From assembly GCA_947476295.1 (NCBI GenBank), contig CANJQC010000003.1, forward strand, positions 35,273 to 99,272: a stretch of DNA of 64,000 nucleotides, written 5' to 3'. Source of the stretch: Planctomycetaceae bacterium (lineage in GTDB: Bacteria; Planctomycetota; Planctomycetia; Planctomycetales; Planctomycetaceae). Within the stretch, counting starts at the first letter, position 1. The number at the start of each line of letters is the position of its first letter. Below the pieces are notes generated by a model. The model saw only the letters and a program-made list of their open reading frames with translations. It was not told where the DNA came from and did not search any database. Position numbers and translations under genes: made by a program. Positions 6,874 to 19,607 of the stretch are shown piece by piece.

Positions 6874-7284
6874 GGCTGTGTCACTGGATAAAACACGAAG
6901 TGAGCTTCATCGTACTTGAGTTTTGGAACGTCGGAAAGCTTGCCCGTGGGTTGAGGCACGTCTTTTGGCCTTTTTCAGTGCATCAACCGCTTCCATCATA
7001 AGTTGAGGTTACATTGCCTTGCCACTAGCACTTTCCGGTTGCCTCAATACGCAGGCTGTGATCGCATACTCAGCATCGTGTCATGTTGAACATTCTAACG
7101 GTCCGCCACGTCGGGCGACGCGCGTGCATCAATGAATCGAGTTTGAAGGATCAAACATGCAAACACGAGTGGTGCAACTACTGCGGCGAGGGTTTCCCCT
7201 GGTTCCGTGCGTGGTAGCACTCTGTTGGAGTTGGCTTTGGTAACTGAGGTAAGGTTTGCGGGATATTCAGATTGTAGTGCCCCC
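6874..7284. other. intergenic region between globin and flagellar cluster
   Basis: This gap of about 410 bp holds the divergent starts of the globin (-) and flgB (+). Two short minus-strand frames near 6880-7000 look faintly coding (KLKYDEAHFVFYPVTQ) but overlap the globin start and match nothing I recognise. No sigma-54 or sigma-28 flagellar promoter consensus could be picked out by eye. Confidence 0.4.
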
Positions 7285-7674
7285 ATGTCGCCAGCCGATG
7301 CCGACGATATGCAGTCTCTCAATTCACAATTCGATCTGCTTGGTCGCCTCATCGACGCCACCGAAGTGCGTCATCGAGCGATCAGCAACAATATCGCTAA
7401 TGTCAATACGCCCAATTACAGGCGAATGGATGTTGAGTTTGAACAGCAACTTGCGCGAGAATTGTCCCGACAGGAACACACAAACGGGAGTTCCCTGATC
7501 ACTGCACAGCCGGAAATGGTAGTCACGCCGGGTCTGACTGCTCGAGCGGATGGGAACAACGTGGATATTGATCGCGAGATCGGACAATTGAATAAGAATG
7601 CGATGTTGCAGCAAACCTACGTTCAATTGCTCAGCACTTACCTGGAACAAATGCGTCTTGCCATCCAGGGCTAA
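7285..7674 (+). CDS. flgB: flagellar basal-body rod protein FlgB
   Basis: Proximal rod subunit of the flagellar basal body, exported by the flagellar type III system to the periplasm. The protein is about 129 aa. The N-terminal rod signature RHRAISNNIANVNTPNYRR is diagnostic, and the C-terminal amphipathic helix is present (QTYVQLLSTYLEQMRLAI). The ORF is open to 7207, but the first 26 codons are not FlgB-like. ATG 7285 or 7309 (MQSLNSQ) are both plausible. It is the first gene of a single-strand flagellar operon and is followed by flgC after about 60 bp. Confidence 0.93.
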   Translation: MSPADADDMQSLNSQFDLLGRLIDATEVRHRAISNNIANVNTPNYRRMDVEFEQQLARELSRQEHTNGSSLITAQPEMVVTPGLTARADGNNVDIDREIGQLNKNAMLQQTYVQLLSTYLEQMRLAIQG

Positions 7675-7734
7675 ATAAACAGATCTTGTTGACACTGAAT
7701 TCAAATCAGTACCAGTTGGAAAGGAGGCCCATCG

Positions 7735-8172
7735 ATGTCAATGAATCAAATCCTGTCCGGAATGGATATTAGTGCATCCGGATTGACGGGGGAGCGTCTG
7801 CGGATGGAAGTGGCCGCGAACAACATCGCCAATCAACATTCCACTAGAACTGCTCAGGGGGGGGCCTATCAGCGGCAGCAGGTCACATTCGCCGCTGCGA
7901 TGGCACAACACGGTGCAGGGTCCGCACAGGATCTGAAAGGCGTGACGGTCGTTGGTGTTTCCAGCGACACGACGCCTGGCGAAAGCATCTTCGATCCAGG
8001 TCATCCCGACGCCGATGAAACGGGCCATGTGCAGCAGTCAAACGTTAATCTTCCGCATGAGATGGTAGATCTTGTCACAGCCAGCCGCGCTTACGAAGCC
8101 AATCTGAAGTCCCTCGAGACATTTCGTCAAATGGCCGAACAAGCTCTGTCTCTGCTGCGAGGTCTGCGCTGA
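7735..8172 (+). CDS. flgC: flagellar basal-body rod protein FlgC
   Basis: Second rod protein, 145 aa, of normal length. The N-terminus ISASGLTGERLRMEVAANNIAN and the C-terminus VDLVTASRAYEANLKSLETF are the conserved FlgC ends that coil together in the rod. A strong ribosome binding site, AAGGAGG, lies just before the start. Its stop codon overlaps the fliE start (ATGA), which indicates translational coupling. Confidence 0.96.
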   Translation: MSMNQILSGMDISASGLTGERLRMEVAANNIANQHSTRTAQGGAYQRQQVTFAAAMAQHGAGSAQDLKGVTVVGVSSDTTPGESIFDPGHPDADETGHVQQSNVNLPHEMVDLVTASRAYEANLKSLETFRQMAEQALSLLRGLR

Positions 8173-8477
8173 TGTCACTGCAATCAATTAGTGCTCCTGG
8201 TAGTCTGCCGCAGTCGATTCAAAATCCCGCGCGGGACACAAAATCGGCGAACGGCGACATGCCGTTCGCAGATATGGTCAAAGGTCTGATTACGGAAACG
8301 AATCAGGAACAGCTCAAGTCACAGGACGGTGTGCGGCAATTGATTGCGGGAGAGACGGAAAGCATTCACGACGTTGTGCTGACCACTTCCCGAGCAGATC
8401 TGGCGTTTCGACTGATGATGGAGATTCGGAATCGCCTGATCGCGTCGTATCAGGAAGTGATGAGGATGCAGGTGTAG
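8172..8477 (+). CDS. fliE: flagellar hook-basal body complex protein FliE
   Basis: Adaptor between the MS ring and the proximal rod, about 101 aa. The C-terminal half has the FliE signature ESIHDVVLTTSRADLAFRLMMEIRNRL, followed by YQEVMRMQV. The N-terminus is a disordered Ser/Pro/Asn-rich stretch, as usual. The start codon overlaps the flgC stop, and fliF follows after about 75 bp. Confidence 0.95.
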   Translation: MSLQSISAPGSLPQSIQNPARDTKSANGDMPFADMVKGLITETNQEQLKSQDGVRQLIAGETESIHDVVLTTSRADLAFRLMMEIRNRLIASYQEVMRMQV

Positions 8478-8553
8478 TCAAGTTCGTTCAGAATCTGATG
8501 ATGACACTCCGTCAAGGCGACAGGGCTTAGTCGAGCGAACAGGGGATTAAACA

Positions 8554-10197
8554 ATGGCTTTCTGGATCACGTTACGAGACCAACTGCTCGCATTGTGGAA
8601 TCGCTGGACGATTGCGCAGCGAGTTGGGTTTTCTGCGGCGGCCGTGGCGTGTGTATCGGCGATCGTCGGTACCATGATCTGGGCCGCACAGCCGGATTAC
8701 GTCGTGATTGCCGGACAGCTGACTCCTCAACGATCGACGGAAATCGCGGGCATTCTGGACACAGAACAGATTCGATACAGTTTGAATTTTTCCGGCTCAG
8801 CCGTTTCAGTTCCCAGCAGCGACGTGGCCAAAGCTCGAATGGCGCTGGCATCGATCTTAAGTCCGGAAAATGAAGCTGATGTTCCGGCTGCCGGACTGTT
8901 TCCCGGTTCGCCTGGAGAGGAAGAAGATCGTCGCCGTGCTGGTCTTGAGAAGCAGATTGAACGTGCCATTAAGCAGATCCGCGGGATTGTCTCGGCGACC
9001 GTCAAAGTGAGTCGCCCTAACCCCAGTCCGTTCGTGACGGATCAGTCTCCTGTCACCGCCGCCGTCGTGATCGAACCACGGGCTGGCGACATTATTTCGG
9101 CGAGTACAGCCAACTCGATCATCGCCGTCGTCGCCGGTTCTGTTCCTGGGCTGACAACTGACAACATTGTGATGACCGATACAAACGGGCGACAATTCGG
9201 CGGTGGCGCTGGTATGGAGAGCGAACTGGCGTATCAACTCAACTATCGTCAGCAAAAAGAAGCCTATTTCGTGCAGCGAATTGAAAGTCATCTGAATCGG
9301 ATTCGAGGCGTGCAGGCTTCGGTTGTTGTGGCAGCGGAAATCGACTTCAATCAACGCACAACGACCAACAGCAAGATTGATTCGGAGAGCAAAGTCAAAC
9401 TCACTTCGAGACTTAATTCGGTAGTAACAAAAGGTCCAAAAATTGCTCCTGCTGGAGGTGTCGGAGGAGTCACCGGTGAGGCTTCGAACACTCCCGCCGG
9501 TCCCAAGATGCCGGATGACAATACTGGAAGTTCCACGTCGGAAGACATCGACGAGACCTTTGCGTACCCCGAATCGCAGGAAACGATCACATTCACTGGC
9601 GGCGATATCGTTCGGCTGAGTGTTTCAGCAGTCGTAGATCTCACAAATGCCACTGAAGCTGCATCTGATAATCCGGAGAACACTGGCACGGCGACTCCTC
9701 CGGCTGCCACGCTCACAAAAGATGACATCGAGAATCTAATCAAGAGTGCTGTCGGCTTCAGTCAAACTCGCGACGATCAGATTGAAGTGATTCTGGCTGC
9801 CCTAGAGCCGTTCGAAACGACGGAACCAGCTACTCCTAGCTTCGTTTGGGAAAAGTGGCAGCCGCTGCTTCAGTCAGTATCTCTTGGACTGGCGGCGATG
9901 CTTGCGTTCCTGATTGGCATGATGCTGATGAAACGCATGAAACCGATCGTCATTCCCGAAGCTACAGGACGCGGTGTTTCACTCGCAGACGCGCGTCGGC
10001 TGGCAACAATTTCTGCACAGGCAAAGGCACACCCTGAAGTGGTTGCAAGCATACTTACAGCATGGCTCAATGAGCAGGAAGCCAACGCTGCGGATGGGAA
10101 GTCCGAGACCTCGACTGGCATTCTCCGCACGCCGTCTGCCACGGTGGGCGGCGTGTCGGGAGCGAAATCAGTGAATCCGGTCGCGAGGGCGGCATAG
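8554..10197 (+). CDS. fliF: flagellar M-ring protein FliF
   Basis: Forms the MS ring in the inner membrane, the base for rod and C-ring assembly. The protein is 547 aa with two membrane segments: residues ~26-46 (FSAAAVACVSAIVGTMIWA) and ~435-458 (LGLAAMLAFLIGMMLM). Between them lies the periplasmic ring-building region, with EKQIERAIKQIRGIVSATVKV and a Ser/Thr/Pro-rich loop at ~290-330. The cytoplasmic tail after the second segment would bind FliG. The order flgBC-fliEFG is standard. Confidence 0.95.
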   Translation: MAFWITLRDQLLALWNRWTIAQRVGFSAAAVACVSAIVGTMIWAAQPDYVVIAGQLTPQRSTEIAGILDTEQIRYSLNFSGSAVSVPSSDVAKARMALASILSPENEADVPAAGLFPGSPGEEEDRRRAGLEKQIERAIKQIRGIVSATVKVSRPNPSPFVTDQSPVTAAVVIEPRAGDIISASTANSIIAVVAGSVPGLTTDNIVMTDTNGRQFGGGAGMESELAYQLNYRQQKEAYFVQRIESHLNRIRGVQASVVVAAEIDFNQRTTTNSKIDSESKVKLTSRLNSVVTKGPKIAPAGGVGGVTGEASNTPAGPKMPDDNTGSSTSEDIDETFAYPESQETITFTGGDIVRLSVSAVVDLTNATEAASDNPENTGTATPPAATLTKDDIENLIKSAVGFSQTRDDQIEVILAALEPFETTEPATPSFVWEKWQPLLQSVSLGLAAMLAFLIGMMLMKRMKPIVIPEATGRGVSLADARRLATISAQAKAHPEVVASILTAWLNEQEANAADGKSETSTGILRTPSATVGGVSGAKSVNPVARAA

Positions 10198-10216
10198 TAC
10201 GGTGTAGAGTCAGTCG

Positions 10217-10296
10217 TGGGGCGGGCTTCCAGCGTGCCATTCATTTCTGACCAACTTGTGTTCAAGACAAATTTTGCAGGCTGGAAGCCTGCCCCA
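10217..10296. repeat. inverted repeat between fliF and fliG
   Basis: Two 21-nt arms, TGGGGCGGGCTTCCAGCGTGC (10217-10237) and GCAGGCTGGAAGCCTGCCCCA (10276-10296), are reverse complements at 19 of 21 positions, separated by about 38 nt. This GC-rich palindromic form recurs in planctomycete genomes as a dispersed intergenic repeat (family knowledge). In the fliF-fliG transcript it would form a strong hairpin and could set differential expression. Confidence 0.7.
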
Positions 10297-10316
10297 TAGT
10301 CAACCACGGACGGAAA

Positions 10317-11351
10317 ATGGATCGCGAACGTCAAACATTCGAACTGCTTCAACTGCTCGGTGACGACGTAGCTGAAGTCGTTTTGTCGCGACTTCAGCCT
10401 GAACGAGCGGCCATGCTTCGTTCCGGAATGCAGTCGGACAAGACACGTCGTTCGACAATTGGGAGACAACGCGCAGTGCTCGACGATTTTGACTGCTTTT
10501 TTCAGTTCGCACTCAAGTCATTGCCCAAAGAGTCACGCGAAGACATCGAGATTACGAATTCAGACTTTGGTTCAAGCTCAGCCTCTGTCGCTGAATCATC
10601 AGATGTGTCTCCGGATACAGATCCCGGTGACGACGCTGACAACTCAACATCCGCGACTTCAGAGCAATCTCCAGCGGCAGCACCTAAGCTCACCGGAATT
10701 CCGCTGCTGGATCTGCAGACTCTAAGCGTGCATCAGCTTGCATTGGCCCTGTCCTCCGAGCAGCCGCGAACGTGTGCGATACTGATGAGCAATCTTCCGG
10801 CGAAACTAGCGGGCGATATCCTGAGTTTGCTCAAGGCGGAAAATCAAAATCTGGTTATGAGGGAACTGACGAAAGAACAACACGCTCCGGAAGTTCTGAT
10901 CGAACGCATCGCCAAGGCAACGTTCGTGCGAGCCCGTCAGTTGCCAGCCGATCCTCCGGACACGCGAGATCATGCGGACCGTGTAGCCGAAGTACTGCGA
11001 AGTGTCCCAAAAGCAGGCCGTCGGAATATGCTGGCCGTGATTGAAGAACAAGATCCGGACCTGGCCAAGTCGTTGCTGACGCGTATCTATCGTTTCGACG
11101 ACATAGCAACGCTAAAAAAGACAGTTATTCAGCGGGTTTTGGGCGAAATTGACAGCGCCAATCTGACGACAGCGCTGTACGGAGCAGAGCAGGAAATCAC
11201 GGATGCTGTCTTTGCGAATCTGTCGAAGCGAGCACGCCAGACAATCGAAGAAGAAATGCAGTTCATGTCAAACATGACCGAGTCGCGGATTCAACAGGCA
11301 CGCGATTCCATCGCAGAAATCATTGCAAAGATCGATATGGAAAGTGAATGA
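10317..11351 (+). CDS. fliG: flagellar motor switch protein FliG
   Basis: C-ring subunit linking FliF to the stator and switch. The protein is 344 aa. The N-terminus contains LLQLLGDDVAEVVLSRLQPE, followed by an unusual Ser/Asp/Pro-rich acidic linker at ~80-120. The middle domain (LALALSSEQPRTCAILMSNLPAKLAGDIL) and the C-terminal charged-helix domain (IPEDxx-like region replaced by DIATLKKTVIQRVLGEI) follow. C-terminal similarity to FliG is clear (TALYGAEQEITDAVFANLSKRA, EEEMQFM). It lies between fliF and fliH. Confidence 0.9.
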   Translation: MDRERQTFELLQLLGDDVAEVVLSRLQPERAAMLRSGMQSDKTRRSTIGRQRAVLDDFDCFFQFALKSLPKESREDIEITNSDFGSSSASVAESSDVSPDTDPGDDADNSTSATSEQSPAAAPKLTGIPLLDLQTLSVHQLALALSSEQPRTCAILMSNLPAKLAGDILSLLKAENQNLVMRELTKEQHAPEVLIERIAKATFVRARQLPADPPDTRDHADRVAEVLRSVPKAGRRNMLAVIEEQDPDLAKSLLTRIYRFDDIATLKKTVIQRVLGEIDSANLTTALYGAEQEITDAVFANLSKRARQTIEEEMQFMSNMTESRIQQARDSIAEIIAKIDMESE

Positions 11352-11397
11352 CGGTGAGCGAAATCGCGATAGCCGCCGGTAACTGTTCTTGAAAACG

Positions 11398-11428
11398 CAG
11401 CAGAACACCGGCGCTTGGTGCCATACAG
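11398..11428 (+). repeat. 31-nt dispersed repeat, copy A (before fliH)
   Basis: CAGCAGAACACCGGCGCTTG and the following GTGCCATACAG match a second copy before fliJ at 24 of 31 positions. Both copies lie in the leader of a downstream fli gene. They contain short palindromes, so this is probably a mobile intergenic repeat; a regulatory role cannot be excluded. Confidence 0.55.
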
Positions 11429-11449
11429 CTCACAGGACCATCTAGAATC

Positions 11450-12280
11450 ATGTCCACACTTCGAATTAAACTCAATCGCTCACCTCGCACGATCACCGTG
11501 GGTAACAGGACGGTGTCTGTTCCACGCATTTCGTGCGCTCAGCGCTCGCCGGAGCTGAACGCAGCGGCTGCACCCGCTGCAAAAGCATCCCACGGCAGTT
11601 CACCGGCGCCACGGCCAAAGTCCGCTTCTGTCGCCACCGTGATCACAAACCCTGTCGATCGATCTATGACTCCGTTGTCAAAATCCAACGCCGTGCCTGT
11701 GCTTTCAAACTCGGCGCATGAAGTCGTGACGGCGGAAGAAGTCGGTCTGGGTGGGATTGATCCTGATGAAATCAGTCGACTGCAACAACTGCTCGGCGAT
11801 GCTTCGGAAGCCGTCCTTGAGTTACAGACACAGCATCGGCAATCGCTTGGTGAAATGCAGGAAGTCGCCGTCGAACTTGCCACCGCCGCCGCGTCATGGT
11901 TGGTGGGCGTTGCTCTTGATCGAGACCTGTTTGCTGTCGATGATCTGATTCTGAAGGCGCTCGAACATCTGGAGCTGAATCAGTCTGTCAAGGTACGGCT
12001 GAACCCGGCAGACCATGACCTGTTATACACATTGCTTAGAGATCCCGTCAGCCAGAAGCAGTTGGATCAGTTGTTGTGTTTGAAGGACGAATCAATTTCG
12101 CGCGGTTCTGTTCGAGTGGAATCCGGACGGCGAATTCTGTTGACAGAGATGGACTCGCGGCTGGAAAAAATCCGCCGGACATGGATGGAGAAACTTGATG
12201 ACTCTCAGATTGAACGTCGCGGAGATGGCTCAGGTACCCGGACATTGCGCCGCTTTCCGGAACGTCGGGAAACTGCGTAG
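11450..12280 (+). CDS. fliH: flagellar assembly protein FliH
   Basis: Negative regulator and stator of the FliI export ATPase. The protein is 276 aa with a low-complexity Ala/Ser/Pro N-terminal ~90 residues. A helical region follows (ISRLQQLLGDASEAVLELQTQHRQ), then the FliH/HrpE-type C-terminal domain (VELATAAASWLVGVALD... KVRLNPADHDLL). The family assignment rests on this C-terminal pattern and on position immediately before fliI. Its 3' end overlaps the fliI start by more than 80 nt, an unusually long overlap. Confidence 0.85.
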   Translation: MSTLRIKLNRSPRTITVGNRTVSVPRISCAQRSPELNAAAAPAAKASHGSSPAPRPKSASVATVITNPVDRSMTPLSKSNAVPVLSNSAHEVVTAEEVGLGGIDPDEISRLQQLLGDASEAVLELQTQHRQSLGEMQEVAVELATAAASWLVGVALDRDLFAVDDLILKALEHLELNQSVKVRLNPADHDLLYTLLRDPVSQKQLDQLLCLKDESISRGSVRVESGRRILLTEMDSRLEKIRRTWMEKLDDSQIERRGDGSGTRTLRRFPERRETA

Positions 12281-13517
12281 CGTTCGCGGATTGATGCGAG
12301 CGGACATGCAAGCGTTCGTTGGGGAAACCTGCTCTATTGGCCTCCAGAACGGCGACCAATTGATGGCGGAGGTGGTTGGTTTTGACGAAACCGAATCGCA
12401 ACTGATGTGTTTTGACAGCACAGCTGGACTGCATCCCGGTCTCGAAATCACAGGTACCGGCTACAGCCGCGCTGTACCAGTTGGCAATGGTCTTTTAGGG
12501 CGAGTCATTGATGGTATCGGCCGACCGATCGACGGACGTGGTCCACTGCGCGTTCGACGATGGCGACCTGAGTCCGCCAAGGTACCCGATGCAATGCAGC
12601 GTACACGCATCACCGAACCGCTTGTTACCGGTCAGCGCGTGATTGACGGTTTACTCACGATTGGTCGGGGGCAGCGCGTTGGTCTGTTTGCTGGCAGCGG
12701 TGTCGGCAAAAGTACGCTCATGGGTGAGATCGCCAAGAGCGCAGAATCGGACGTGAACGTCATTGCAATGGTCGGCGAACGTGGACGTGAAGTGCGACCC
12801 TTCATTGAAGATTGCCTCGGCGATCTGGGCCTTGCACGATCTGTCGTCGTCGTGGCGACGTCCGATCAGACGCCATTGATGCGAATTAAGGCGGTTCTCA
12901 CGGCGGCGACCATCGCGGAAGAATTCCGTGATCAGGGAGCCCATGTGTTGTTCTTTCTTGACAGTCTCACACGACTGGCAATGGCACAGCGAGAATTGGG
13001 GCTGTTGCTGGGAGAACCTCCGGGATCGCGTGGTTATCCACCCTCCGTGCAATCGTTACTTGCGAGCGTACTTGAACGGCTGGGGTGCGGTGAGGTTGGA
13101 GCTATAACTGGACTCATTACGGTTCTGGTCGATGGTGACGATATGGACGAACCAATCACCGATGCTGCACGTGGAATTCTCGATGGTCACATTGTCCTGA
13201 GCAGAAAACTTGCCGCTCAGGGCCATTATCCTGCTGTTGATGTGCTGCCCAGCGTCAGCCGAGTCTTCCGGGAAGTCACAACTGAAGAACATCAAAAGAA
13301 CGCCACCAAGCTTCGCTCGTTGCTGGCCACACATGCGGAGATCGCCGACCTCATTCAGATCGGAGCTTACAAAGCTGGAACTTCGCAGCAGGTGGATCGT
13401 GCTGTCCAGATTATTCCTGCCGCAAAGCGATTCCTGCAACAGAGCGTTAATCAGAAAACTGGATGGCAGGAGACTCAGGCACAATTGAAAACCCTTGCCG
13501 CAGCCTGGCCTTGGTAA
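12198..13517 (+). CDS. fliI: flagellum-specific ATP synthase FliI
   Basis: Export ATPase of the flagellar type III secretion apparatus, about 439 aa. Walker A is FAGSGVGKST and Walker B is HVLFFLDSLTRLAMAQRE. The conserved GDDMDEPI and DGHIVLSR segments are present, and the C-terminal helical domain is complete. The track starts at TTG 12195; the adjacent ATG 12198 is used here. A downstream start would shorten the fliH overlap, but the N-terminal RLNVAEMAQV could be genuine beta-barrel sequence. Confidence 0.95.
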   Translation: MTLRLNVAEMAQVPGHCAAFRNVGKLRSVRGLMRADMQAFVGETCSIGLQNGDQLMAEVVGFDETESQLMCFDSTAGLHPGLEITGTGYSRAVPVGNGLLGRVIDGIGRPIDGRGPLRVRRWRPESAKVPDAMQRTRITEPLVTGQRVIDGLLTIGRGQRVGLFAGSGVGKSTLMGEIAKSAESDVNVIAMVGERGREVRPFIEDCLGDLGLARSVVVVATSDQTPLMRIKAVLTAATIAEEFRDQGAHVLFFLDSLTRLAMAQRELGLLLGEPPGSRGYPPSVQSLLASVLERLGCGEVGAITGLITVLVDGDDMDEPITDAARGILDGHIVLSRKLAAQGHYPAVDVLPSVSRVFREVTTEEHQKNATKLRSLLATHAEIADLIQIGAYKAGTSQQVDRAVQIIPAAKRFLQQSVNQKTGWQETQAQLKTLAAAWPW

Positions 13518-13574
13518 GCGAATGTGCGGCACGGCGCTATCCCCCCGGTATCTGTTCAATCAAATACGGCGACA

Positions 13575-13605
13575 CAGCAAAACACCGGTGGCTGGCGCCA
13601 TTCCG
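13575..13605 (+). repeat. 31-nt dispersed repeat, copy B (before fliJ)
   Basis: CAGCAAAACACCGGTGGCTG and the following GCGCCATTCCG form the second copy of the repeat seen before fliH. ACCGGT and TGGCGCCA are perfect short palindromes within it. It fills much of the 110-bp fliI-fliJ spacer. Confidence 0.55.
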
Positions 13606-13627
13606 TTCATCTACAGACACATTTCCA

Positions 13628-14089
13628 ATGAAACGATTTATATCACGATACGAACGAATTCGCCACTTGAGGGCGCAGCAGGAAGACGCCTGCCGCGCTG
13701 CCGCTGCAGCATGCAACGCGGAACGAACGGTTGCGGAAGAACATCGGAACGCGGTACGACAATGGCTGAATACAGTTCACCGCAACGCGGCACGCGATCT
13801 GGCAAATGGCCTGAGCGGCGGGGTTCTCGTTTCAATGACCAGCATGATGGAATACGGTGGACAAAAATTGCAGAGCGCTAAAGAAGCTCTGAACACGGCT
13901 GAAGAAAATCTGCGGTTAGCTCTGCAACAGCACAGTCAGGCTCGAGCCGAATTGAAGATCATGGAAGAAGTCATCCATCGGGAACAAACAGAACATCGAC
14001 GGGAACAACTGAAACGCGAAGAAATTCAAATGCAGGAGCAGGCATCGCAGGCTTACTACCGGATGCAGGAAATCAGGAGTGAACAATGA
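13628..14089 (+). CDS. fliJ: flagellar export chaperone FliJ
   Basis: A two-helix coiled-coil chaperone of about 153 aa that works with FliH/FliI at the export gate. The N-terminus FISRYERIRHLRAQQEDACRA and the Glu/Gln/Arg-rich second helix are FliJ-like. The track ORF begins far upstream at 13463, inside fliI; ATG 13628 is the natural start. Its stop overlaps the next start by 4 nt, indicating coupling. Confidence 0.85.
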   Translation: MKRFISRYERIRHLRAQQEDACRAAAAACNAERTVAEEHRNAVRQWLNTVHRNAARDLANGLSGGVLVSMTSMMEYGGQKLQSAKEALNTAEENLRLALQQHSQARAELKIMEEVIHREQTEHRREQLKREEIQMQEQASQAYYRMQEIRSEQ

Positions 14090-15273
14090 AGAAAATTCTT
14101 GGCCTCGTGCTGTACGCTGCGGTGATGTTCGGTGTGACTGCCGGACTTGGCATGTTCATGATGAAGAAGAATGCACCGCATGGAAGTGATCTTGCGGAGA
14201 ATGGTGCAGAGCATATCGACTCGGAGCGTGATGCCGCCGGACACTCCACTGGCGATTCGACTGATAGCGAATCCGGGACAACTCATGTTCAGACCGTTGA
14301 TGCTTCGTCGTCGCATAGTGGTGGCCATGCCACGGTGGCAGACTCGCATGCTCAGACAGGAGGTCACAGCGATCTGCAGCTTCCCGTCGCCATTCGAAGC
14401 TCGCCAATGAGCGTTGAAGAGATCGTCCGCATGGGATTAAGCCTGAAGTCGCGGGATGAGTCCCTCCGACAGCGAGAATCGTCACTGAAAGATGCAGAAT
14501 CTCAGCACCGTCTGATTCATGCGGACGTGGAAGGCGCTCAGCAGGAAGTAGAAAACCTGCTGGCTCAGGCAAACGATCAACGCGCGGCAATCGAGGAATT
14601 GGTCGCGCGGATGAATACTCAGAAAGAAGCGGTGAGCAATGAACGGCTGGCAATCGTCAGCGAAAAGCAACAGCTACACGCTGATCGCGAAAAGCTGGAC
14701 ATCGACCGCGGGCAACTGGAGGCTCAGAAAATCGCGTTGGCTGAGAACGAAACCGAACTGCAGCTCAAACGCCGCGAACTGGACAACGACCGGCAGCAGT
14801 TTGATAACGACCGCACCAAAATTACGGTCGATGGCGACAAACTCGTCAAGGATCGTGATAAATGGGTGATGGAAGTTGAACGCATGAACCTTGAGAAACA
14901 GGAGCTTGCTGCAGAGAAGGAACGAATCCGGGTCGAACGCGCAACGCTGGAGCAGGAAAAACGACTTCTGGCCAGTACGCCCGGTGCGGCTGCACTGCCG
15001 TCACAAAAGAAGCCACTTGATGCGGCATCCGCGAAGCAGAATCTCAAAGAACTCATAGAGATGTTTGAAGGCATGAGTCCCGAAACAGCCGCCAGCACAA
15101 TCAAAGCGCTTTCTACCGATGGTAAAACCGACATGGTGGTCGATGTTCTTGTACAGTTGGACGAGCGTAAAGCCTCCGCCATTCTCGAAGCCATCGCTGA
15201 TGAGAATCTTGTGAGCGAGTTCCTTATAAAGATCAATAGTCGCCACAGTCAACCCAAGGCGGCGAAGAAATAG
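14086..15273 (+). CDS. MotE-like coiled-coil protein with MgtE-N-type C-terminus
   Basis: A 395-aa protein with an N-terminal membrane segment (LGLVLYAAVMFGVTAGLGMFMM) and a His/Ser-rich stretch to ~110. A very long coiled coil (~120-300) has repeated LELDRGQLE-like heptads. The C-terminal ~70-residue domain (LIEMFEGMSPETAASTIKAL ... ASAILEAIADENL) resembles the MgtE N-terminal/FliG-like fold found in MotE. MotE chaperones MotC in rhizobia, and similar genes sit after fliJ in many bacteria. The coiled coil is much longer than in a standard MotE. A role at the motor or stator is inferred from position. Confidence 0.75.
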   Translation: MKKILGLVLYAAVMFGVTAGLGMFMMKKNAPHGSDLAENGAEHIDSERDAAGHSTGDSTDSESGTTHVQTVDASSSHSGGHATVADSHAQTGGHSDLQLPVAIRSSPMSVEEIVRMGLSLKSRDESLRQRESSLKDAESQHRLIHADVEGAQQEVENLLAQANDQRAAIEELVARMNTQKEAVSNERLAIVSEKQQLHADREKLDIDRGQLEAQKIALAENETELQLKRRELDNDRQQFDNDRTKITVDGDKLVKDRDKWVMEVERMNLEKQELAAEKERIRVERATLEQEKRLLASTPGAAALPSQKKPLDAASAKQNLKELIEMFEGMSPETAASTIKALSTDGKTDMVVDVLVQLDERKASAILEAIADENLVSEFLIKINSRHSQPKAAKK

Positions 15274-15375
15274 CGCAGCACGCACGATGGGCAAAAGGCA
15301 TGCGTCCTATACGACCTCCAGCCCCCATATCGCTTTCCTTTTGCCAGCAGCCCACATCCGATTGGATCAAATCGC

Positions 15376-15645
15376 ATGGACACACTCAACGTTGTCGAAA
15401 TCGGTCAGGATTTCCTGCTCACAGCCATGTGGCTTTCCGGGCCCGCGATTGCCGTCAGTCTCGTCGTCGGTTTGATGATCAGTTTGGCGCAAACGGTGAC
15501 CAGCGTCCAGGAGCAAACGCTTTCGTTTGCTCCCCGCATCGTCGCTGTCGGCGCGGTGATGCTGCTGACATTGCCATGGATGCTGCAGCAGTCGTCCGCG
15601 TTTACCATGCGCATGATGGAACGATTGCTGCAGGTGACGCAATGA
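15376..15645 (+). CDS. fliQ: flagellar biosynthesis protein FliQ
   Basis: An 89-aa export-gate subunit with two membrane helices. The diagnostic pattern is GPAIAVSLVVGLMISLAQTVTSVQEQTLSF followed by a second hydrophobic helix. The ORF is open in another frame from 15300, but ATG 15376 gives the canonical N-terminus. It overlaps fliR by 4 nt. fliP, normally immediately upstream, is not here. Confidence 0.95.
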   Translation: MDTLNVVEIGQDFLLTAMWLSGPAIAVSLVVGLMISLAQTVTSVQEQTLSFAPRIVAVGAVMLLTLPWMLQQSSAFTMRMMERLLQVTQ

Positions 15646-16427
15646 TCGATGCAGGCAACTCAATTACCGCGGCGATGGTCTTGGCATCATTGCTGATCTT
15701 TTTTCGAGTCAGTGCGTTCATCGTTTTTCTGCCGCCCTTGAACGGTCAGGGAGTCCCGGCTACGGTCAAGATCGGACTGTCCGTGGCGATCACTTTCCTG
15801 CTGGCAAATCGCTATGCCCCCGTATTAGCGTTGTCGCTGGATATGCCTGCCAATGGTGCCGGTGCATGGCTGGAACTTGCGTTTCTGGGGATTCGAGAGA
15901 CGGCGTTGGGCGCCGGTCTGGCATGGCTGTTCAGCCTGTGTCTGGTTCCCGTGCGAATCGCTGGGGCCTGGATTGCTCAGGAAATGGGCCTGACACTTGG
16001 TGGACTTTCTTCGCCGATGGACCAACAGCCCAGCAATGTGATCTCAACAATGCTGGAAGCATTCAGCATCATTATGTTTTTCGTGCTGGACCTGCATCAT
16101 ATCATGCTCTATTCCCTTGGTCAGTCGTTTGCCATTCGTCCGGCGGCTGGTGCTTGGTCCATGCCCTCGTGGGAAACCGTCGTCTGGAGCGTGACGCACG
16201 CCGTGGACGATGGATTTCTGATTGTCGCCCCGATTGGGATCTTACTTTTCGTCGTGGCCCTCACGATCCTGATCACAATGCGCACGGCGCCACAGTTTAA
16301 TTTCATGTCTTACGGGATGACGCTGCGACTGGCTGCGGGTCTCGGCGGGTTGATCATGTTCCTGCCGGAAGTCTGCGGAGCTATCCAGCAACTGCTGTAT
16401 CGCGCTGGTCAGGGAGTCACAAGCTGA
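15642..16427 (+). CDS. fliR: flagellar biosynthesis protein FliR
   Basis: Integral membrane export-gate protein of about 261 aa with at least five hydrophobic helices. Conserved segments include SAFIVFLPPLNGQGVPATVKIGLSVAI, GAWIAQEMGLTLG and the FliR-typical LDLHHIMLYSL. The track merges it with an upstream extension from 15300. The real start is the ATG overlapping the fliQ stop. flhB follows after 1 nt. Confidence 0.94.
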   Translation: MIDAGNSITAAMVLASLLIFFRVSAFIVFLPPLNGQGVPATVKIGLSVAITFLLANRYAPVLALSLDMPANGAGAWLELAFLGIRETALGAGLAWLFSLCLVPVRIAGAWIAQEMGLTLGGLSSPMDQQPSNVISTMLEAFSIIMFFVLDLHHIMLYSLGQSFAIRPAAGAWSMPSWETVVWSVTHAVDDGFLIVAPIGILLFVVALTILITMRTAPQFNFMSYGMTLRLAAGLGGLIMFLPEVCGAIQQLLYRAGQGVTS

Positions 16428-16428
16428 A

Positions 16429-17502
16429 ATGGCAGATATCGAACATCATGGTACCGAAGCACCAACACCACGGCGACGTGAGCAGGCACGCGAAGATGGC
16501 CAGGTTGTCCTCAGTACAGATCTGACGGCCGCCGTCGCACTGTTGACCGGCTGCGCGATTCTCCTCTGGACCGGCAGCACGCTCGGCGCTCGCCTGATGA
16601 ATGGATTTCGTGAGTGGATGACGGATGTTCCCGGCTCAGAATGGAATGAATGGAACGTGACGCTGGGGGCTCGCTGGATGTCCGCAGAATTGGCGGGAAT
16701 CTGTGGCTTTTTTGTACTGGCGATCCTGTCGATCGGCCTTGCGTTTGGATTTGCGCAGGTCGGATTCATAATTTCGTTCAAACCTCTGGCGCTCAAGTGG
16801 GATCGGCTGATCCCTGAAAATCCATTTTCAAAACTAATCTCGATGGACTCGGGTATCAAGGGCATTCTGAACGCAATGAAGGTCACGCTCCTGCTGGGCA
16901 TTTCGATACTGATGATATGGCTGCGACGCGGTGAATTGTCGGTTCGCAATTTCGGATCAATCGATGCGGTCGCTGCGTACGCTTGGAAACTCGGACTTAT
17001 GATTTGCATGGCAATGGCCGGAGTTTCCGTCGGACTGGCCCTCGCGGACTATCTAATCAAGTGGTTCCGCCAGGAGCAGAAGCTCAAAATGACTCGGGAA
17101 GAAATCAAACAGGAACAGAAAGACGATAGCGGCGATCCTCACGTCAAAGCAGCGGTTCGGAGAAAGCAAAGAGAGGCCAGAAAGCAACAGTCGGTGAAGG
17201 ATGTGCCAAAGGCCGATTTGATTTTGACGAACCCTACGCACCTTGCGATCGCGATTCAGTACCAGCCCGGAAAAATGCGTGCTCCAAAGATCGTGGCCAA
17301 AGGCGCAGGAGTCTTTGCACAGAATATCATTCGGATCGCAAAGGAAAACAAGATTCCCGTCATGGAACGCAAACCACTGGCGCGCGCGCTGTTCAGGATC
17401 GTCGATGTCGGTCAAGAAATCCCGTTCGAATTCTTCCGCGCGATCGCTGAGATCCTTGCACAGATTTACAAAGCAAAAAATGGGGCCGGGACTCGTGTCT
17501 GA
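16429..17502 (+). CDS. flhB: flagellar biosynthesis protein FlhB
   Basis: Export-gate switch protein of 357 aa. The N-terminus EAPTPRRREQAREDGQV is diagnostic. Four membrane helices are followed by a cytoplasmic domain with the autocleavage motif NPTH at about residue 268 (ILTNPTHLAIAIQY), which controls substrate specificity switching. VMERKPLARALF and a complete C-terminus follow. It is tightly coupled to fliR. Confidence 0.96.
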   Translation: MADIEHHGTEAPTPRRREQAREDGQVVLSTDLTAAVALLTGCAILLWTGSTLGARLMNGFREWMTDVPGSEWNEWNVTLGARWMSAELAGICGFFVLAILSIGLAFGFAQVGFIISFKPLALKWDRLIPENPFSKLISMDSGIKGILNAMKVTLLLGISILMIWLRRGELSVRNFGSIDAVAAYAWKLGLMICMAMAGVSVGLALADYLIKWFRQEQKLKMTREEIKQEQKDDSGDPHVKAAVRRKQREARKQQSVKDVPKADLILTNPTHLAIAIQYQPGKMRAPKIVAKGAGVFAQNIIRIAKENKIPVMERKPLARALFRIVDVGQEIPFEFFRAIAEILAQIYKAKNGAGTRV

Positions 17503-17558: not shown

Positions 17559-18341
17559 ATGGATGTCGCAACTATTCTTGGTCTGGTGACCGGACTGGTC
17601 ATGGTCGGCTCGGCGATGTGGTATGGTGGTGATGCACTGCCGTTTATTCATGCGCCGTCTATGCTGATCACATTCGGAGGAACGCTCGCTGCTGTGCTTA
17701 TTCACTTTCCGGCGCATCGTGCTCGAAACGCCTTTGCTGTGGCACGCAATTGCTTTGTGTCATCGCTTCCGGAACCGACGGAAGTGCTGGAACAGTTTCG
17801 ACACTTCGCCACGATCGTTCGACGCGGTGGGTTGTTGGCGTTAGAACCAATCGCTGAGCAACAATCGGATCCGTTTCTGAGAACCGGACTCGAACTCACC
17901 GCCAGCGGCTGCGATCCGGAAACACTCGCTGCTGCGCTTCAGCGTGAAACACAGGCGATTGCCCAGCGACATGCCTCCGGTCGCCAACTTTTTGAAGTGA
18001 TGGCTTCTGCGGCGCCTGCCTGGGGCATGATCGGCACACTCATCGGACTCACGCAGATGCTCAGTCATCTGACCGATCCGAAGCAAATCGGTTCCGGCCT
18101 CGCCTTGGCGCTGCTGACCACACTTTACGGCGCGTTGTTTTCTCATCTGTTCTGTATTCCGCTTGCTGGAAAACTGGAATCACGGCATACCGAAGAAACG
18201 ATGATTCGTGACATCATGCTGGAAGGTTTTCTGGCACTTCAGGAAGAACATTCCCCCGGTTTAATCGAAGAGCGTCTTCGCGCATGGATCCCACCTCAAC
18301 ATCGATCTGAGGTGCTGTCTGAACGCGCAAAGGCGGCGTAG
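17559..18341 (+). CDS. motA: flagellar motor stator protein MotA
   Basis: Stator ion-channel subunit in the inner membrane, 260 aa, with four hydrophobic segments. The N-terminus LGLVTGLVMVGSAMW leads to APSMLITFGGTLAAVLI. The conserved proline regions PAWGMIGTLIGL and LLTTLYGALFSHLFCIPLAGKLE are both present. The cytoplasmic loop includes ERLRAWIPP-type charged residues. It should pair with a MotB, but the next two genes are not standard MotB proteins. Confidence 0.92.
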   Translation: MDVATILGLVTGLVMVGSAMWYGGDALPFIHAPSMLITFGGTLAAVLIHFPAHRARNAFAVARNCFVSSLPEPTEVLEQFRHFATIVRRGGLLALEPIAEQQSDPFLRTGLELTASGCDPETLAAALQRETQAIAQRHASGRQLFEVMASAAPAWGMIGTLIGLTQMLSHLTDPKQIGSGLALALLTTLYGALFSHLFCIPLAGKLESRHTEETMIRDIMLEGFLALQEEHSPGLIEERLRAWIPPQHRSEVLSERAKAA

Positions 18342-18348
18342 TGTCCCC

Positions 18349-18894
18349 ATGAAAATAATGATTACACCTCAGCGTGGGCAATCACTCTACGCCGCAGGAT
18401 GGCAGTATGTGGGTTCGGGGATTGTTGTCGCTTTGATGTTTGTCATCATTGCGTCTGCAGCCATGTTTCGCGAGCAACGTGCGGCGGGCGCGTCAGGAAT
18501 CATGTCACGCGAAGGCCAGTTCTTCGACGACGGGTTGAACGATTTGAGGGCGGGCAAGAATCGTGCGATCAGCCATTCTGTACGGCTGGCGCTTCCAATG
18601 CAGCAGCTACGCGATGCCGAGGGACGATTGACCTCGAACGGCGAATCGTTCTTTCTGCTTCTGGCTCGTCGAATGAAATCGCTTTCATTCAGCGTCATGC
18701 TCACCACAAATTCAATCGCCGATGCGAAATTCGCAACCATCATCGCAGCCCGCATGATGCGTGAGGTTTCCCTGGAATCAACGCAGCTCAAAATCAGTAT
18801 TGAAGGCCGTATGGCCAGCGTTGACGCGCAGAGTGATTCGCTCTTGACCGTTACGATTGCCCAGCATGAAACTGTCGATGGAGATACAGAATGA
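18349..18894 (+). CDS. single-TM protein in the MotB position, degenerate OmpA/MotB-like
   Basis: A 181-aa protein with one N-terminal membrane segment (VGSGIVVALMFVIIASAAMF), 7 nt after motA and overlapping the next gene by 4 nt. MotB proteins carry a membrane Asp that conducts protons and a C-terminal OmpA-like peptidoglycan-binding domain. No Asp is visible in or near this segment. The C-terminal part (LSFSVMLTTNSIADAKFATIIAARMM) only faintly resembles the OmpA pattern and lacks its usual signature residues. Assignment as a MotB derivative rests on synteny and topology. Function unknown. Confidence 0.5.
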   Translation: MKIMITPQRGQSLYAAGWQYVGSGIVVALMFVIIASAAMFREQRAAGASGIMSREGQFFDDGLNDLRAGKNRAISHSVRLALPMQQLRDAEGRLTSNGESFFLLLARRMKSLSFSVMLTTNSIADAKFATIIAARMMREVSLESTQLKISIEGRMASVDAQSDSLLTVTIAQHETVDGDTE

Positions 18895-19607
18895 AGTCGC
18901 CTGGCTCTGGCATTCATAAACCAACGACGCTGACAATGCTGAGTGGACTTGCGACAATCGTTGCTGCGACTTTAGCACTTGGCTCAATGGCGCAGGATCG
19001 GTCAGGACAGTCGACAGCGATGGTGTCGAAGTCGTTTCGTACGGAACTGGGTGCCAACGATCATGAATTCGAGTTGATTCCGCTGGTCAACGATAATTCA
19101 AGAGACGTCGATGTTGCGAAACCGCATTTGCCGGGGCGTCTTGTCATGTCGTTTGGTCAAGTGAAGGACAATGTCGATCCTGCGAGGGAATTTGCAAGCC
19201 TGTTGCCAGAACTGGAACGGATTGCGGGGCGTTGTACTGCAGACGCACCGGTTCGGGAAGTTCGTATTGATGTCTTTTATAAAGATCCCGAATCCGTCAC
19301 TTCGCTGGTCGAACAAGCATGTCAACAGGCATGTCATACGTCGGAGGACAGGGAATCGTTGTTATTGCGCGAGGGAGTGCATGTGGAGATTCAGACATGG
19401 GCGGCATCACCGACGCAGGCGGCATGGATCGATGCTGTCCGTGAAGCCAGCCGTCTGCGTGATGGCTTGAATGCGGAGTTTTCGCAAGCAAATTCGCCGC
19501 AGTTCTTGATTTCATCATCAGCCGCCCTTTGGCCGTATGCCGACCGAATGCGCCCGGCAATGACAATCGTTTTTGGGTTTCCGATTGCGGAACAGACGGT
19601 TTTCTAA
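18891..19607 (+). CDS. hypothetical single-TM protein, last gene of the flagellar operon
   Basis: A 238-aa protein with a signal-anchor-like segment (LSGLATIVAATLALGSMA) and a periplasmic-looking remainder. It shares an ATGA overlap with the preceding gene, so the two are probably made together. No family was recognised. Alpha/beta text such as VREVRIDVFYKDPESVTSLV could be a diverged OmpA-like or ferredoxin-like fold. Like its neighbour, it has no acidic residue inside the membrane segment. A stator accessory role is inferred from position only. Confidence 0.5.
   Translation: MKSPGSGIHKPTTLTMLSGLATIVAATLALGSMAQDRSGQSTAMVSKSFRTELGANDHEFELIPLVNDNSRDVDVAKPHLPGRLVMSFGQVKDNVDPAREFASLLPELERIAGRCTADAPVREVRIDVFYKDPESVTSLVEQACQQACHTSEDRESLLLREGVHVEIQTWAASPTQAAWIDAVREASRLRDGLNAEFSQANSPQFLISSSAALWPYADRMRPAMTIVFGFPIAEQTVF

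Follow-up and report, generated by a model that had tools for sequence, protein, structure and literature searches.

How could a flagellar stator work if neither of its B proteins carried an ion-binding residue? The aspartate of MotB is regarded as indispensable to a stator, and the window, a 64,000-nucleotide stretch of a planctomycete genome (G000; 252 contigs, 99% complete), raises this question. In the window, the 3' end of a flagellar operon consists of motA and two small genes, hereafter B1 and B2 (Table 1). The gene order of the upstream operon, which includes a FliG_C match, is the same in relatives, as determined by tblastn. The motA stop and the B1 start are separated by a gap of 7 nt, and B1 and B2 overlap by 4 nt. 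The original prediction, made from the window's sequence, described two overlapping genes directly after motA, each encoding one membrane segment, and the open reading frames and the AF2 models both agree with this description. The prediction that neither protein has the membrane aspartate was also borne out, the corresponding residue being glycine in B1 and serine in B2, with no aspartate or glutamate in the membrane part of either. Elsewhere in the operon, a coiled-coil protein between fliJ and fliQ (14086-15273) has an N-terminal membrane helix and is kept in the operons of relatives; its C-terminal part appears MgtE-N/MotE-like by eye.

Table 1. Positions of the features in the window and, where a locus is named, elsewhere. 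In the one-aspartate loci, motB2 is the gene without the aspartate.
Feature	Position	Strand	Basis
Upstream operon (position of the whole operon): flgB, flgC, fliF, fliG, fliH, fliI, fliJ	7207..17502	+	ORFs
Same operon after fliJ (position of the whole operon): coiled-coil membrane protein, fliQ, fliR, flhB	7207..17502	+	ORFs
motA, PomA/MotP type, 260 aa	17559..18341	+	ORF; Pfam MotA_ExbB, E 3.2e-26
MotA T160, kept; aligns with PomA ion-site T158	18036..18038	+	Alignment
MotA T187 and T188, kept; align with PomA T185 and T186	18117..18122	+	Alignment
B1, motB1 descendant without the aspartate, 181 aa	18349..18894	+	Synteny; alignment with aspartate-bearing motB1
B1 membrane helix, residues 18-40, no acidic residue	18400..18468	+	Sequence; AF2 helix 12-45
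B1 G24, position of the MotB ion-binding aspartate	18418..18420	+	Alignment
B1 reduced OmpA-like domain, residues 75-173	18571..18867	+	AF2 pLDDT mostly 86-95; Foldseek
B2, motB2 descendant without the aspartate, 238 aa	18891..19607	+	Synteny; alignment with aspartate-bearing motB2
B2 membrane helix, residues 11-35, no acidic residue in core	18921..18995	+	Sequence; AF2 (confidence low to moderate across the helix)
B2 S18, position of the MotB ion-binding aspartate	18942..18944	+	MAFFT alignment
B2 OmpA-like domain, residues 121-229	19251..19577	+	AF2 pLDDT mostly 79-94; Foldseek
One-aspartate motB2 locus	L133:8266-8976		
One-aspartate motB2 locus	L170:1429-2205	reverse	
One-aspartate motB2 locus	L175:1480-2202		
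Short MotB loci	L104:10571-11155; L179-L198; L199:14259-14825		

Many planctomycetes have a tandem MotB1 and MotB2 encoded after motA, and synteny and alignment identify B1 and B2 as their orthologues. The same slot of the operon is occupied in relatives by motA and then a pair of motB genes that both encode the MotB membrane motif (WF[VM]TYSDVITLLMTFF in B1 and Y[LM][LIV]SFGD[CT]MTALLAFF in B2), and in the window two consecutive B genes likewise stand directly behind motA in the flagellar operon. We compared the family profiles with canonical planctomycete MotB by hhalign. Both matched over the membrane and periplasmic parts (E 2.5e-14 for B1 and 2.7e-9 for B2), and, as the profiles include the aspartate-bearing orthologues, it is by way of these that the window proteins are linked to MotB. 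Unrelated proteins standing in for MotB were ruled out by the profile comparison and the synteny. Therefore, what the original prediction took for non-canonical proteins replacing MotB are diverged MotB1 and MotB2. No match to FliL or another known stator accessory was found for B1 or B2 at E values up to 10 in Pfam and NCBIfam. The window proteins also had no match to ExbD (PF02472), for which one orthologue gave an E value of 0.06.

The periplasmic parts of both proteins have diverged strongly. Neither B1 nor B2 was matched by the Pfam OmpA model (PF00691) or by an NCBIfam model of MotB or OmpA, and the usual peptidoglycan-binding loop was missing from the B1 family in the profile alignment. 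To this extent, the prediction that a clear OmpA-like peptidoglycan-binding domain is lacking stood; nevertheless, AF2 predicts a reduced OmpA-like fold (beta-alpha-beta-alpha-beta-beta), which the OmpA sequence models would miss because the domains are too diverged. The profile comparison and single-chain structure prediction, which had been proposed as a check, gave an OmpA-like fold that was clear in B1 and weak in B2. The B1 model matched OmpA-like and MotB periplasmic domains in Foldseek (E 4e-5 to 9e-4), with E values of 4e-5 to 3e-4 for those of OprF and MotB. The matches of B2 were weak (E 2e-3 to 6e-3), and its domain model contained one weak pLDDT stretch, so that the overall confidence was mixed compared with the high confidence in B1. 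The MotB_plug model (PF13677) matched 11 of the 17 members of each orthologue alignment but neither window protein in Pfam, and B1 is shortened (181 aa vs. 212-226 aa in the aspartate-bearing triads).

The loss of the aspartates is a property of the genus. We classified 18 genomes of the window's genus by FliG; seven were flagellated by a strong match, and the eleven others included two with marginal matches (E 3e-4 to 8e-4). All seven flagellated genomes carry the window-type motA together with the second stator described below, and all eleven others carry neither. Flagellin splits in the same way, except in G017 (one flagellin; genome only 61% complete). Both aspartates are absent in every one of the seven flagellated genomes. 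The residue at the ion site is glycine in B1 throughout, except in G006, where it is unclear but is not aspartate, and is serine, glycine, or alanine in B2. A sequencing or frameshift artefact was ruled out, since six further genomes share the loss with open frames. The frames are open in all seven genomes despite a deep divergence (MotA 60% identical). The dN/dS values in the aspartate-less group were 0.06-0.13 for MotA, 0.16-0.29 for B1, and 0.22-0.42 for B2, with distant pairs near saturation; an aspartate-bearing pair gave 0.12 for MotA and 0.13 for B1. Relative to silent sites, change is two to three times as fast in B1 and B2 as in MotA. A simple count test on close pairs rejected neutral change (p 2e-5 or less, a rough value given that the test ignores transition bias, which acts in the same direction). 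Thus motA, B1, and B2 are under purifying selection. With dN/dS well below 1, the three genes do not look like pseudogenes, and this candidate was dropped as unsupported.

The partner MotA is of a familiar type. It matched PomA and MotA structures in the PDB (E about 1e-50), and its NCBIfam PomA score of 229 bits lies below the 341-bit cut-off of that model. The three ion-site threonines of Table 1 are kept in the aspartate-less group, as are the rotor-facing residues R88 and E96. This retention is not special, because about half of all MotA sites that are invariant among the aspartate-bearing relatives (38 of 71) are kept in this group; as proof of ion flow, the threonines are too weak. The group has 15 MotA changes of its own. 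These include D25 and H31 in the periplasmic loop, which every MotA of the aspartate-less group carries and none of the aspartate-bearing group does; in the alignment, H31 corresponds to PomA D31. In the MotA tree, the aspartate-less proteins form one branch beside the aspartate-bearing ones, with a support of 86/100 that falls under the tool's strict mark and with a long G006 branch whose own placement is less sure. The single branch suggests that the aspartate-less group arose once. The G006 MotA (L123:11059-11802) is without its first 22 residues, the first membrane helix region, because of a deletion at the flhB-motA junction, observed in a single metagenome assembly.

We then considered the tandem arrangement beyond the genus. 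The B2 family had a match in 97 of 392 genomes of the phylum, ordinary MotB proteins being among the matches, and the full motA-motB1-motB2 triad was present at 24 of the 30 best loci (L149-L178). The triad occurs across Planctomycetota, normally with the aspartate in both B proteins. The combination of one motA with two different motB genes suggests that the B axle of the stator is mixed. Three lineages have lost the aspartate from B2 only and keep it in B1, the B2 residue being serine in G041 and alanine in G158 and G229. G041 (L133) has no other MotB_plug match. Its genome contains three FliG_C matches (contigs C1, C8, and C179), the strongest of which is remote from the tandem stator; this may point to a second flagellum-like system. 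Nine tandem-pair genomes from other genera have no third MotB. The exception is G013, with three MotB_plug matches. On its contig C169 (L126:2095-4352), an aspartate-bearing triad lies beside 2-oxoacid:ferredoxin oxidoreductase-like genes. We considered G013 as a genome with all three stators and judged this improbable, as the C169 MotA groups with other genera. For one neighbouring gene on C169, identity to relatives reaches no more than 72%, and no counterpart was found in the remaining flagellated genomes of the genus; the C169 triad is probably a binning contaminant, or else a third stator.

A genome without any true MotB was ruled out by a search of G000. The genome encodes a single additional MotB, on contig C38, and a MotA gene immediately precedes it there. 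It keeps the aspartate (AYADFVTAMMAFFMVMWL), is 195 aa long, and has no OmpA domain, so the search proposed for an aspartate-bearing MotB, whose success had been named as one half of a refutation, returned a MotAB pair that is not fully canonical. Across the genus, C38-type MotB proteins are 75-86% identical and their MotA proteins 86-90% identical. The neighbours of the C38 locus are metabolic genes. This short MotB form (about 190-200 aa, with the aspartate and without an OmpA domain) is widespread in the class, and FliG was present in all 20 short-MotB genomes tested. In G086, of the same family, the short motA-motB pair comes immediately after flhB, where the window has motA, B1, and B2, and the operon is identical in other respects; in G483 and G098 the pair is about 4.5 kb from flhB. 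Four other members of the family, G220, G087, G067, and G607, have no window-type motA behind flhB. Given the linkage to flhB in relatives, the presence of FliG in 20 of 20 genomes, and the genomes without window-type motA, the short MotAB is very probably a working flagellar stator. A non-flagellar role for the C38 pair is unlikely, as pairs of the same family stand behind or near flhB in G086, G483, and G098. The short MotB is apparently the sole stator in several FliG-bearing genomes. Five family genomes with the short stator have no tandem stator behind flhB, indicating that the tandem stator is dispensable. The original prediction had also allowed that the real MotB is elsewhere and that B1 and B2 are accessories. 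The first part is supported by the aspartate-bearing MotAB on C38 and by the occurrence of its family in the operon slot of G086; an accessory role for B1 and B2 is plausible.

Homology, synteny, the loss of both aspartates, purifying selection, the second MotAB, and the co-occurrence with FliG are the observations from which our explanation sets out. We consider that there is about an even chance that the window encodes a former two-MotB stator, now ion-dead and retained as a passive motor component, and that the short MotAB powers rotation. In the ancestor of the genus, both B proteins would have lost the ion-binding aspartate, and B1 would also have shed much of its plug and linker. MotA, B1, and B2 probably continue to form a membrane complex next to the rotor, in a geometry that would place a MotA ring around a B1/B2 axle, with MotA towards FliG. 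In Vibrio, PomB D24 and PomA T158 and T186 are required for sodium flow, motility is abolished in PomB-D24N, and the membrane region of PomAB contains no carboxylate besides D24 (PMC6677748). Because PomB D24 is indispensable there, a MotA-B1-B2 complex should by analogy not conduct ions, and it would generate no torque of its own. It may act passively at the motor, for example as an idler, a brake, or a scaffold, and rotation would be driven by the aspartate-bearing MotAB from C38. We infer a passive role because the genes are selected, are found only in flagellated members of the genus, and lie behind flhB. Against this reading, MotA keeps ion-site threonines that a passive ring should not need, B1 and B2 evolve faster, the G006 MotA is truncated, and five genomes dispense with the tandem stator.

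Several of these points would also fit a decaying relic, in which the stator function passed to the short MotAB, the older stator lost its aspartates before anything else, and the operon end is slowly disappearing. The short-stator relatives without a tandem stator behind flhB, such as G067, the faster change of B1 and B2, and the missing first helix region of the G006 MotA all favour it. However, seven of seven genomes keep open frames over the deep divergence in MotA, and dN/dS is low in close pairs as well (0.06-0.13 for MotA, 0.16-0.35 for B1/B2). We regard a relic as a less likely but live alternative. Still less probable, though also live, is a mixed stator, in which the window MotA would form its ring around the short MotB of C38, with B1 and B2 as assembly or anchoring partners replacing its wall-binding domain. 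The retained threonines, R88, and E96 of MotA are consistent with such an arrangement, as are the complementary domain contents (no OmpA domain in the short MotB, a reduced one in B1 and B2) and the constant joint presence of both stators within the genus. On the other hand, the short MotB has an adjoining and highly conserved MotA of its own, FliG is present in genomes with the short MotAB alone, the usual wall-binding loop is missing in B1 and B2, and the G006 MotA has no first helix region to contribute.

The most improbable possibility, in our view, is a stator that still conducts through another ion path, for example by the periplasmic side of MotA around D25 and H31 or by hydroxyls of the B helices. 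The fixation of D25 and H31 in the aspartate-less group alone and the alignment of H31 with PomA D31 speak for it. Yet these two residues sit at the membrane edge, neither B helix holds an acidic residue, the B2 site varies between species (S, G, A), and the PomB-D24N phenotype argues against a path that bypasses the carboxylate. The suggestion in the original prediction of a stator with a different ion pathway thus found no support, as no replacement acidic residue is present in either B helix.

Planctomycetota present a natural series in a stator that apparently has two different B subunits; it runs from two aspartates in most members to one in G041, G158, and G229 and to none in the window's genus. 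We propose tentatively, and as a single proposition, that the window's genus is the end point of this two/one/no-aspartate series and that its motor combines ion-driven stators with a selected class of stator-like units, whose axle consists of two proteins without an ion-binding residue and which serve passively as gears or brakes of the rotor. The series allows tests of whether both ion sites are required, whether an asymmetric stator is possible, and what role a non-conducting unit has. Here, too, one type of stator is seen replacing another, and the common MotB family that has no wall-binding domain poses the question of how it is anchored. No description of tandem, duplicated, or mixed MotB was found in the open-access literature, where absence is no proof of novelty. 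The portions of a survey of MotAB evolution on which we drew place Planctomycetota in both main stator groups, treat the gene next after motA as encoding the B subunit, and make no mention of a second B gene (PMC12505986).

Compared with the PomAB, MotPS, and MotAB stators (5 A : 2 B), the window has a MotA of the PomA/MotP type and MotB-homologous B proteins behind motA, each with one membrane helix and an OmpA-like fold. It differs from them in having two different B genes, neither with the ion-binding aspartate, a reduced plug and linker in B1, and no recognisable peptidoglycan-binding signature. OmpA-like stator partners such as Vibrio MotY resemble the window B proteins in their OmpA-like periplasmic domain near the stator; unlike MotY, B1 and B2 are MotB descendants that are encoded after motA and have a membrane helix of the MotB type. 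The aspartate-bearing triad of Planctomycetota shares gene order, operon context, and sequence homology with the window, which differs in the loss of both aspartates and in the shortened B1. Bacillus subtilis, with MotAB and MotPS, likewise has two sets of stator genes in its genome and a single type of flagellum, but both sets are ion-driven, whereas one set in the window's genome is without an ion-binding residue (PMC5380961). The nearest described case of one A and two B proteins is the Myxococcus gliding motor, in which AglR, a MotA homologue, works with two different MotB homologues, AglQ and AglS; whether these two form a mixed dimer is reported as unknown (PMC9389320). Unlike the window proteins, both Agl B proteins keep the aspartate, have TolR-like periplasmic domains, and serve gliding rather than a flagellum (PMC9389320).
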